From assembly GCA_017942035.1 (NCBI GenBank), contig JAGAVG010000083.1:1-58398 (forward strand): 58,398 nucleotides of DNA, given 5' to 3'. Below the pieces are notes generated by a model that saw nothing but the letters and a program-made list of their open reading frames with translations, was not told where the DNA came from and searched no databases. The position numbers and the translations under genes are program-made. Below are positions 29,624 to 31,097 of the stretch, piece after piece. Source of the DNA: a bacterium (lineage in GTDB: Bacteria; Cyanobacteriota; Vampirovibrionia; Gastranaerophilales; Gastranaerophilaceae). Numbering within the stretch: the stretch's first letter is position 1; each line of letters starts with the position of its first letter.

Positions 29624-29662
29624 TCATATGGAAAATTGATTGTCAACTGATATACTGTGAAT

Positions 29663-29890
29663 ATGAATAATAAATCAGATACAATTACCTATAAACTGGG
29701 TAAAAAGATTAAAATAGAACGAATTAAAAGAGATATTTCTCAAGAGCAACTTGCTGAGCTGGCAGGTGTTGGAACAAATACAATAAGTGGCATAGAGCGT
29801 GGTGTTCAATCACCAACAGTTGAAACTGTAGGAGCCATTGCAAAAGCTTTGGATATCGAGCTTTACAAGTTGTTTATTTTTGATATTTAA
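29663..29890 (+). CDS. XRE-family transcriptional regulator, leaderless
   Basis: 75 aa, essentially a single Cro/C1 helix-turn-helix: KIKIERIKRDISQEQLAELA, then GVGTNTISGIERGVQSPTVE. Start at ATG 29663, because TATACT (29651-29656, extended by TG upstream) ends 6 nt before it; an in-frame GTG at 29657 touches the -10 box. It lies directly upstream of the four-unit peptide array and reads toward it, so it may regulate the array. Confidence 0.85.
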   Translation: MNNKSDTITYKLGKKIKIERIKRDISQEQLAELAGVGTNTISGIERGVQSPTVETVGAIAKALDIELYKLFIFDI

Positions 29891-29931
29891 ATTTTAGATT
29901 GACATTTACAGGAAATATTGTTAATATAATT

Positions 29932-30136
29932 AAGAGGGTAAAAGCTTCTTAAATATCATATCCATATCTTAACGGCACGAACTGAAAATTTGTTAAACCG
30001 TTAAAGAAAGGAGGTGATAATAGTGATTTTCACGATAAGTGAAAAAGCGCTAATGCTTATCTTGTTGATAGTCATAGCGCTCAAACTAAAAAAATAAGGG
30101 GCTTTTAAAAGTGCGGAGTGCAATCCGCACGCCCTT
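29932..30136 (-). ncRNA. Candidate antisense RNA, unit 1
   Basis: Promoter on the minus strand: TTGAAA (30170-30165), 16 bp, TATAAT (30148-30143) preceded by TG. Start is expected near 30136, inside the 3' arm of the peptide gene's terminator, so the RNA would cover the whole coding region. The 3' end is guessed at the inverse of the sense 5' hairpin. Confidence 0.55.
30023..30097 (+). CDS. Hydrophobic small peptide, array unit 1
   Basis: 24 aa from GTG behind AAAGGAGGTGATAATA. Begins MIFTISEKAL, then a Leu/Ile-rich single helix and a basic end LKLKK. Promoter TTGACA 29899-29904, -10 TAATAT 29922-29927. The coding RNA forms two hairpins: TTTCAC-GATAA-GTGAAA and AGCGCTA...TAGCGCT. The 5' hairpin uses a G-U pair possible only in the sense strand. 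Size, amphipathic ends and antisense promoter fit a membrane-acting type I toxin; a benign small membrane protein is the alternative. Confidence 0.7.
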   Translation: MIFTISEKALMLILLIVIALKLKK

Positions 30137-30142
30137 GTTTTT
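30096..30142 (+). terminator. Terminator of array unit 1
   Basis: Outer AAGGGGC/GCCCTT arms around an inner GTGCGG...CCGCAC hairpin, then GTTTTT. Confidence 0.75.
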
Positions 30143-30238
30143 ATTATAACATACTTTTTAAAGATTTCAAGTGTATTTAATAATTTAAAAATAATTCTGT
30201 TTTTATTGACATTTGTAATGGGAATTGGTATTATAAAC

Positions 30239-30444
30239 AAGAGGGCAAAAGCCTCTTAAATATCATTATCCATATCTTTACGGCACGAACTGAAAATTTG
30301 TTAAACCGTTAAAGAAAGGAGGTGATAAGATGGATTTCAGTATAACTGAAAGAGCACTAGTAATCATTTTACTGATAATACTAGCACTCAAATCCAAATA
30401 ATAAGGGGGCTTTTAAAAGTGCGGAGTGCAATCCGCACACCCTT
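30239..30444 (-). ncRNA. Candidate antisense RNA, unit 2
   Basis: Minus-strand TTGAAA (30478-30473), 16 bp, TATAAT (30456-30451), TG-extended. Expected start near 30444, reading leftward over the terminator and peptide gene 2. The 3' end is approximate. Confidence 0.55.
30330..30401 (+). CDS. Hydrophobic small peptide, array unit 2
   Basis: 23 aa from ATG behind AAAGGAGGTGATAAG. Begins MDFSITERAL, hydrophobic core VIILLIILAL, end KSK. Promoter TTGACA (30206-30211)-17-TATTAT (30229-30234). Hairpin 1 in the coding sequence is TTTCAG-TATAA-CTGAAA: both arms differ from unit 1 but still pair, a compensatory change. It is the most divergent peptide of the four (Asp2, Arg8). Confidence 0.7.
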   Translation: MDFSITERALVIILLIILALKSK

Positions 30445-30450
30445 ATTTTT
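30401..30450 (+). terminator. Terminator of array unit 2
   Basis: Same hairpin as unit 1 (GTGCGG...CCGCAC inside AAGGG/CCCTT arms), then ATTTTTATT. Confidence 0.75.
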
Positions 30451-30545
30451 ATTATAACATATTTTTTAAAGATTTCAAGTGTATTTAATAATTTAAAAAT
30501 AATTCTGTTTTTATTGACATTTGTAATGGAAATTGGTATTATAAA

Positions 30546-30747
30546 CAAGAGGGCAAAGCCTCTTAATATCATATCCATATCTTAACGGCACGAACTGAAA
30601 ATTTGTTAAACCGTTAAAGAGAGGAGGTGATAATAGTGATTTTCGCAATTAGCGAAAAAGCGCTAATGCTTATCTTATTGATAATCATAGCGCTTAAACA
30701 ACACTAAAGGGGCTTTTATGAGGCCGGGCCTAACCGGTCTCGCCCTT
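30546..30747 (-). ncRNA. Candidate antisense RNA, unit 3
   Basis: Minus-strand TTGAAA (30781-30776), 16 bp, TATAAT (30759-30754), TG-extended. Expected start near 30747. The 3' end is approximate. Confidence 0.55.
30636..30707 (+). CDS. Hydrophobic small peptide, array unit 3
   Basis: 23 aa from GTG behind GAGGAGGTGATAATA. Begins MIFAISEKAL, core MLILLIIIAL, end KQH. Promoter TTGACA (30514-30519)-17-TATTAT (30537-30542). Coding hairpin 1 is TTTCGC-AATTA-GCGAAA, again with paired changes; hairpin 2 keeps AGCGCTA...TAGCGCT as in unit 1. Confidence 0.7.
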   Translation: MIFAISEKALMLILLIIIALKQH

Positions 30748-30753
30748 TTCTTT
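30706..30753 (+). terminator. Terminator of array unit 3
   Basis: Different inner hairpin from units 1-2: GAGGCCGG...CCGGTCTC inside AAGGGGC/GCCCTTTT arms. Confidence 0.75.
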
Positions 30754-30849
30754 ATTATAACATATTTTTAAAAGATTTCAAGTGTATTCAATAATTTAAA
30801 AATAATTCTGTTTTTATTGACATTTGTAATGGGAATTGGTATTATAAAC

Positions 30850-31054
30850 AAGAGGGCAAAACCTCTTAATATCATTATCCATATCTTAACGGCGCGAACT
30901 AAAAATTTGTTAAACCGTTAAAGAAAAGAGGTGATAAAAGATGATTTTCACTATAAGTGAAAAAGAACTAGCAATAATCTTGTTGATTATACTAGTTCTC
31001 AAATCAATCTAAAAGGGGCTTTTATGAGGCCGGGCCTAAACCGGTCTCGCCCTT
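30850..31054 (-). ncRNA. Candidate antisense RNA, unit 4
   Basis: Minus-strand TTGAAA (31088-31083), 16 bp, TATAAT (31066-31061), TG-extended. The promoter lies only about 10 bp after the stop codon of the leftward solute-binding gene, with no terminator between, so read-through from that gene could also produce antisense RNA across the array. Confidence 0.55.
30941..31012 (+). CDS. Hydrophobic small peptide, array unit 4
   Basis: 23 aa from ATG behind AAAGAGGTGATAAAAG. Begins MIFTISEKEL, core AIILLIILVL, end KSI. Promoter TTGACA (30817-30822)-17-TATTAT (30840-30845). Hairpin 1 is TTTCAC-TATAA-GTGAAA; hairpin 2 is a perfect AGAACTAG...CTAGTTCT, different bases from units 1 and 3 but fully paired. 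Confidence 0.7.
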   Translation: MIFTISEKELAIILLIILVLKSI

Positions 31055-31060
31055 TCCTAT
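31011..31060 (+). terminator. Terminator of array unit 4
   Basis: GAGGCCGG...CCGGTCTC hairpin as in unit 3, inside AAAGGGGC/GCCCTTT arms. Confidence 0.75.
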
Positions 31061-31097
31061 ATTATAACATATTTTTTGAAGATTTCAAGTGGCAGAT

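Follow-up and report, generated by a model that had tools for sequence, protein, structure and literature searches.

A tandem array of candidate type I toxin-antitoxin-like gene pairs in Gastranaerophilaceae, with the predicted antisense RNA ending inside the peptide reading frame

The window, i.e., the whole stretch of 58,398 nucleotides analysed here (contig JAGAVG010000083.1 of assembly GCA_017942035.1, from a bacterium of the family Gastranaerophilaceae), contains an array of four tandem units at positions 29899-31091, spaced 303-308 bp apart. In each unit, a sense promoter is followed by one hairpin at the predicted 5' end and another in the leader, then by a near-perfect Shine-Dalgarno sequence, an open reading frame (ORF) of 23-24 codons for a hydrophobic peptide, and an intrinsic terminator. 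The minus strand of each unit carries a convergent promoter, TTGAAA-16-TGTTATAAT, whose start lies inside the sense terminator. An original prediction, made by a model from the letters of the DNA, had described four direct repeats of about 306 bp with these parts, the leader hairpin apart, and had placed the antisense start within the sense terminator, as is the case in all four units. Tandem Repeats Finder recovered the array as 29917-31091 (period 308, 3.8 copies, 85% matches), and the top eight matches of a promoter scan were the promoters that had been predicted: four sense promoters (three TTGACA-17-TATTAT and one TTGACA-17-TAATAT) and four minus-strand TTGAAA-16-TGnTATAAT boxes, scoring 10-11 of 12 each. 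In all, the scan detected 21 promoter-like sites, compared to 6.6+-2.4 in shuffles, and seven terminator-like sites, compared to 0.6+-1.0. One type of sense terminator is common to units 1 and 2, and another to units 3 and 4. The leaders of the four units are 89-93% identical and the ORFs only 66-84%, a pattern that would be compatible with copies diverging in toxin-antitoxin specificity.

Relatives were sought at the DNA level in 99 related genomes and, with a peptide hidden Markov model (HMM), in 286 genomes of the order, and 123 distinct units, 119 of them with full flanks, were extracted from related genomes. Single-base codon differences in the peptide frame comprise 7468 synonymous versus 4471 non-synonymous changes; the corresponding ratios in the other two frames are 3666:9898 and 1009:12247. 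Codon differences are thus mostly synonymous only in the peptide frame, indicating that the ORF is coding; conservation of the reading frame in related genomes had been set beforehand as a test of the prediction. The start codon, the Shine-Dalgarno sequence (of the GAAAGGAGGTGATA type in most of the units) and the hydrophobic core are conserved across the relatives, and the consensus proposed from the four window copies, M-x-F-x-I-[S/T]-E-[K/R] with an ILLI core and a Lys near the end, holds across the 123. The presumably translated peptide of 23-24 amino acids (aa) has a predicted single membrane span. It belongs to no Pfam, NCBIfam, PHROG or PADLOC family: Pfam and PHROG searches were empty even at E<=10, and NCBIfam gave only sub-threshold TatA matches to one peptide and no toxin match. 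The suggested link to a shortened holin-like toxin found no support in Pfam, NCBIfam or PHROG. No Rfam family reached its gathering score, the best being Ref84, an Enterococcus antisense small RNA (26.5 bits versus a gathering score of 52, E 1.3).

The minus-strand promoter scores at least 10 of 12 in 117 of the 119 units, stands at a fixed place after the stop codon and has a spacer of 16-17 in all but one unit; a control region mostly scored 8/12. The consensus -35 box TTGACA accompanies 13 of 21 -10 boxes that differ from TATAAT, compared to only one of 98 TATAAT boxes. Because the two boxes compensate each other, a weak -10 going with a perfect -35, promoter strength appears to be selected and held constant, a pattern that is hard to explain otherwise. 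The DNA search also returned many short matches at query positions 215-290, which were rejected as units. Those inspected (L016, L018 and L019) are TTGAAA-16/17-TATAAT promoters beside other sequence, which supports the view that the antisense box is a normal vegetative promoter.

The predicted antisense RNA has its 3' end encoded within the peptide gene. An unbiased covariation scan of 76 units recovered the sense terminator, the leader hairpin and, in addition, a stem within the ORF that on the minus strand has the form of a textbook intrinsic terminator (e.g., AAGCGCTA...TAGCGCTTTTTC). The stem spans the codons of the 'AL...LAL' segment and is followed by TTTTTC, the complement of the Glu-Lys codons GAA-AAA; the conserved Glu codon is GAA in 108/109 cases and the Lys codon is AAA in 107/107. 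Compared to synonymous recodings of the ORF, the stem is more stable on both strands, with a mean z of -9.4 for the antisense strand and -5.7 for the sense strand. Mispairs in the stem (nucleotides (nt) 24-31) are A.C on the sense strand, corresponding to G.U in the antisense RNA, by 48 to 4. In an alignment of 48 antisense RNAs, the terminator helix is paired at 90.2% and has two-sided changes in seven of its 11 pairs; its covariation score is 0.392, versus 0.144+-0.015 after shuffling (0/500 as high) and at most 0.137 with slid partners. The predicted antisense RNA is 87-111 nt long (median 96), folds as two stem-loops, and covers the 3' untranslated region (UTR) and all but the 5' quarter of the ORF. 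Since its conserved terminator lies at about codon 7, it is not predicted to reach the Shine-Dalgarno sequence, and an antisense RNA that covers this site, as in aapA/IsoA, is not supported.

The sense mRNA is also highly structured. In most units its 5' segment is complementary to the bases just past the stop codon, and the two partners change together (AAGCCC/GGGCTT, AAAGTC/GACTTT, ATGCCC/GGGCAT and AGCTCCC/GGGAGTT); the mean energy of this duplex is -11.5 kcal/mol, versus -9.41+-0.16 with swapped partners. Pairing between the leader and the Shine-Dalgarno sequence is likewise stronger than in controls (-11.5 versus -10.5+-0.18), 104 of 110 predicted folds show most of the Shine-Dalgarno sequence base-paired, and the mRNA of unit 2 folds with a z of -6.4. 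The leader hairpin loop ACTNNAAAT occurs in 76/121 units, versus 0.8 expected in shuffles. This 7-nt loop, CUNNAAA, is similar to the anticodon loop of a tRNA and lies outside the reach of the predicted antisense RNA.

According to the peptide HMM, units occur in 101 of the 286 genomes of the order, with at most nine peptide matches per genome, one copy in some genomes and none in many; all HMM matches listed at the order and phylum levels fall in the window's own taxonomic family. The antisense RNA model adds one genome (G064) from another family of the same order, where two matches (L157; G064:C4:100401-100543 and 101217-101360) retain the terminator stem of the ORF but have an upstream part that looks degraded. 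A unit is also present in L071, a GTDB record titled 'uncultured Brachyspira sp. RUG745'; a DAHP-synthase-like protein encoded next to it shares 87% identity with that of G008, which belongs to the window's family, so the label is likely wrong. In the genome of the window itself there are 12 DNA-search matches and 11 RNA-model matches, both at E<=0.001. Arrays of 2-4 units, spaced 282-359 bp, were found at 15 loci, the four units of the window being the largest array seen, and an orthologous colinear site in one genus has two, two and three units (L029, L032 and L075). In an empty-site comparison, the flanking genes sat on different contigs in the two genomes of the same genus. The neighbouring genes differ from locus to locus, with many housekeeping genes among them, and none is conserved as a partner. 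A small XRE/Cro-type regulator gene (29657-29890; HTH_3 match, E 8.6e-17) ends 9 bp before the -35 box of unit 1; as a dedicated partner it was rejected, its cluster being the immediate neighbour in only 6/100 loci. No match to the units was found in phage and plasmid DNA collections, and a scan of viral contigs gave no relative of them.

Weak matches of the antisense RNA model include other peptides of like layout. The MLVEINEKEL... peptide looks like a divergent relative, and the MKVELIKKALAVLELLIKLILLVI and MNDFNLTLLLILLILYVLKNGSHLYR peptides, both encoded in the window's genome, appear to be unrelated to the family peptide. In 14 of 15 such ORFs, none of 40 synonymous recodings matched the antisense terminator, and one of 40 did so in the remaining ORF; a strict consensus antisense promoter accompanies each of the ten ORFs that belong to the two unrelated types and none of the five MLVEINEKEL-type ORFs. 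The second peptide type (e.g., MKVELIKKALAVLELLIKLILLVI; L170 at G000:C20:1385-1549, L158, L160, L161, L169 and L020) has the leader and antisense promoter of the family and an antisense terminator within the ORF. In the third type (MENINLTLIMIFLILFIIKSSTYPKG and its kin; L171, L172, L173 and L174 on contigs C81, C82, C61 and C47 of the window's genome, G000), the ORF has the antisense terminator at its 3' end (Lys-Asn/Lys-Ser codons), and L172 has a degenerate copy of this type in tandem. On balance, we lean towards a lineage-wide design rule, by which several unrelated tiny toxins carry the terminator of the antisense RNA within the toxin reading frame; at least three further types would follow it (MLVEINEKEL..., MK(R/V)...KAL... 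and M(E/N)N(I/L)NLTL...). Under such a rule, the same bases would specify both the antitoxin RNA and the toxin protein, and the antitoxin would in part determine the toxin's Lys-rich motif and its palindromic core.

Together, these observations suggest that each unit is probably a self-contained type I toxin-antitoxin-like gene pair, belonging to a new family of RNA-silenced toxin genes whose approximately 120 relatives in related genomes keep the layout and are missed by standard annotation. Computationally, both a small hydrophobic peptide gene and a complementary antisense RNA gene were found, and the candidate array put forward by the original prediction gains support from the conserved frame, the near-universal antisense promoter and the covarying antisense terminator. 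The in-ORF terminator, the 5'-3' and leader/Shine-Dalgarno pairings, the other copies in the window's genome and the other peptide families were not part of that prediction. According to the proposed mechanism, the plus strand would yield a structured mRNA for a single-span peptide, presumably a membrane toxin, and the full-length mRNA would be inactive, with its 5' end paired to the post-stop bases and its leader paired to the Shine-Dalgarno sequence. By analogy with aapA/IsoA, the 5'-3' pairing may keep this mRNA inert until it is processed (PMC6733600). From the 3' flank of the mRNA, the strong vegetative promoter would drive the antisense RNA of about 96 nt with its two stem-loops, which would end where the Glu-Lys codons provide the U tract and the palindromic codons of the ILLI core provide the stem. 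It would bind the 3' UTR together with the 3' three-quarters of the ORF, and loop-loop contact at the two hairpins is probably the first step. If the parallel with txpA/RatA and bsrG/SR4 holds, pairing may cause mRNA decay, presumably with a role for RNase III, or lock the ribosome site (PMC3531473, PMC6562991).

Several points weigh against this interpretation. The antisense T tract of unit 2 is imperfect, with Arg AGA in place of Lys AAA. In the window, the terminator scan marked another terminator-like hairpin on the minus strand, at the point where the mRNA begins, and read-through could produce a longer antisense RNA that reaches the Shine-Dalgarno sequence; as the main antisense end, this hairpin was rejected because no T run follows it in most relatives. 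It should be noted that the units are related, so that shuffle and permutation controls overstate their independence; the slid-partner control and the A.C/G.T strand asymmetry are better, albeit partial, guards against shared ancestry. Finally, the same sequence features could belong to a benign small membrane protein under antisense control.

This last explanation, in which the peptide adjusts a membrane complex or a stress response and is not a toxin, is unlikely but the strongest of the rivals. The presence of one copy in some genomes and none in many is compatible with an accessory regulator; however, stand-alone loci with varied neighbours and without a partner gene, tandem changes in copy number, several unrelated peptides under one RNA layout and the heavy predicted silencing (5'-3' closure, occlusion of the Shine-Dalgarno sequence and a strong antisense promoter) fit a toxin better. 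It is very improbable that the hairpins serve mRNA structure only, e.g., as an attenuator or leader-peptide element, with the minus-strand promoter and terminator as by-products and no functional antisense RNA. Although the sense mRNA is itself strongly structured and the antisense -10 box partly overlaps the T tract of the sense terminator, the -35 box lies outside that terminator and makes up for weakness in the -10, the ORF stem folds more stably in the antisense than in the sense RNA and has its mispairs as G.U only in the former, and every unit is closed by a sense terminator of its own, with no gene conserved downstream. Least probable of all is a repeat or mobile element without gene function, similar to miniature inverted-repeat transposable elements, which the dispersed and tandem copies would suit but which is disfavoured by the frame-specific purifying selection and covarying helices, by the phage and plasmid searches, and by the fact that no terminal inverted repeats were noted and no transposase class recurs among the neighbours.

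If the toxin-antitoxin interpretation is correct, type I loci are abundant in a largely uncultured gut lineage for which none has been reported, according to our literature search: no paper joined type I toxin-antitoxin with Melainabacteria, and papers containing both Gastranaerophilales and toxin-antitoxin appear, from the parts available, to be off-topic. An antitoxin RNA and a toxin protein would be co-encoded in one 72-base stretch. The covariance model detects further genes of this kind whatever peptide they encode, whereas ORFs of 23 codons often escape gene callers. Coordinates are listed in Table 1; at the contig end (58373-58398) there is also a perfect ATAGG pentamer repeat of 5.2 copies.

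Table 1. Positions of the features of the four units in the window
Unit	Feature	Position	Strand	Basis or remark
1	Sense promoter TTGACA-17-TAATAT	29899-29927	+	Promoter scan
1	5'-end hairpin	29933-29951	+	Sequence
1	5'-3' pairing of TAAAAGCTTCTTA with TAAGGGGCTTTTA just past ORF	29939-29951 with 30095-30107	+	Pairing analyses
1	Leader hairpin CTTAACGG...CCGTTAAAG, loop ACTNNAAAT at 29981-29989	29968-30006	+	Sequence, covariation scan
1	Shine-Dalgarno GGAGGTGA	30010-30017	+	Predicted paired with leader
1	Peptide gene MIFTISEKALMLILLIVIALKLKK, GTG start, 24 aa	30023-30097	+	
1	Antisense intrinsic terminator in ORF	30041-30080	-	Stem ~30047-30080, T tract 30041-30046 (GAAAAA on +)
1	Sense terminator hairpin and T tract	30111-30142	+	Terminator scan, covariation
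1	Antisense promoter TTGAAA-16-TGTTATAAT	30143-30170	-	Promoter scan
1	Predicted antisense RNA, ~96 nt	30041-30136	-	Start and end predicted
2	Sense promoter TTGACA-17-TATTAT	30206-30234	+	Promoter scan
2	Peptide gene MDFSITERALVIILLIILALKSK, ATG start, 23 aa	30330-30401	+	
2	Predicted antisense RNA, ~97 nt	30348-30444	-	
2	Sense terminator hairpin	30419-30438	+	Terminator scan
2	Antisense promoter TTGAAA-16-TGTTATAAT	30451-30478	-	Promoter scan
3	Sense promoter TTGACA-17-TATTAT	30514-30542	+	Promoter scan
3	Peptide gene MIFAISEKALMLILLIIIALKQH, GTG start, 23 aa	30636-30707	+	
3	Predicted antisense RNA, ~94 nt, two stem-loops	30654-30747	-	
3	Sense terminator hairpin, stem unlike units 1-2	30719-30742	+	Terminator scan
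3	Antisense promoter TTGAAA-16-TGTTATAAT	30754-30781	-	Promoter scan
4	Sense promoter TTGACA-17-TATTAT	30817-30845	+	Promoter scan
4	Peptide gene MIFTISEKELAIILLIILVLKSI, ATG start, 23 aa	30941-31012	+	
4	Predicted antisense RNA, ~96 nt	30959-31054	-	
4	Sense terminator hairpin	31026-31048	+	Sequence
4	Antisense promoter TTGAAA-16-TGTTATAAT	31061-31088	-	Promoter scan

Among known type I systems, ibs/Sib and ldr/Rdl of Escherichia coli resemble the units in that they encode very short hydrophobic peptides from chromosomal copies that are both tandem and dispersed; they differ in lineage and RNA layout, and the family peptide has no Pfam (E<=10) or NCBIfam toxin match. The toxins of the Bacillus subtilis systems are longer (58 aa for yonT and more than 23 aa for the others) and prophage-linked, unlike the family peptide, which has no profile match. 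These systems, txpA/RatA, bsrG/SR4, bsrE/SR5 and yonT/SR6, share with the units a small hydrophobic peptide, a Shine-Dalgarno sequence sequestered in the mRNA, and a convergent antisense RNA (here predicted) whose promoter is downstream of the toxin gene and which overlaps the 3' part of the mRNA (PMC3531473, PMC6562991). Their antisense/mRNA overlap is about 100-140 bp, and a loop-loop contact between the terminators has been proposed for txpA/RatA (PMC3531473, PMC6562991); here, the predicted antisense RNA lies entirely within the stretch covered by the mRNA, the covariation of its in-ORF terminator extends across the family, and the two ends of the mRNA pair with each other.

A long-distance 5'-3' interaction, an occluded Shine-Dalgarno sequence and structures within the ORF are also known from aapA/IsoA of Helicobacter pylori and from hok/Sok, in which the full-length mRNA is inert (PMC6733600). 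The duplex between IsoA and the processed mRNA is 80 bp long (PMC6733600), whereas the antisense RNA predicted here stops short of the 5' UTR and the Shine-Dalgarno sequence, and the peptides are unrelated. Within Cyanobacteria, the first type I candidate, msoT1/msoA1 of Microcystis, was reported in 2025, with homologues only in cyanobacterial genera (PMC12390103). Its toxin has, by the published description, 63 residues and two predicted membrane helices, unlike the family peptide. The msoA1 antisense RNA (56/83 nt) forms two hairpins, and its binding site comprises the 3' UTR and the 3'-terminal part of the coding region (PMC12390103), an arrangement that the predicted antisense RNA of the units shares.
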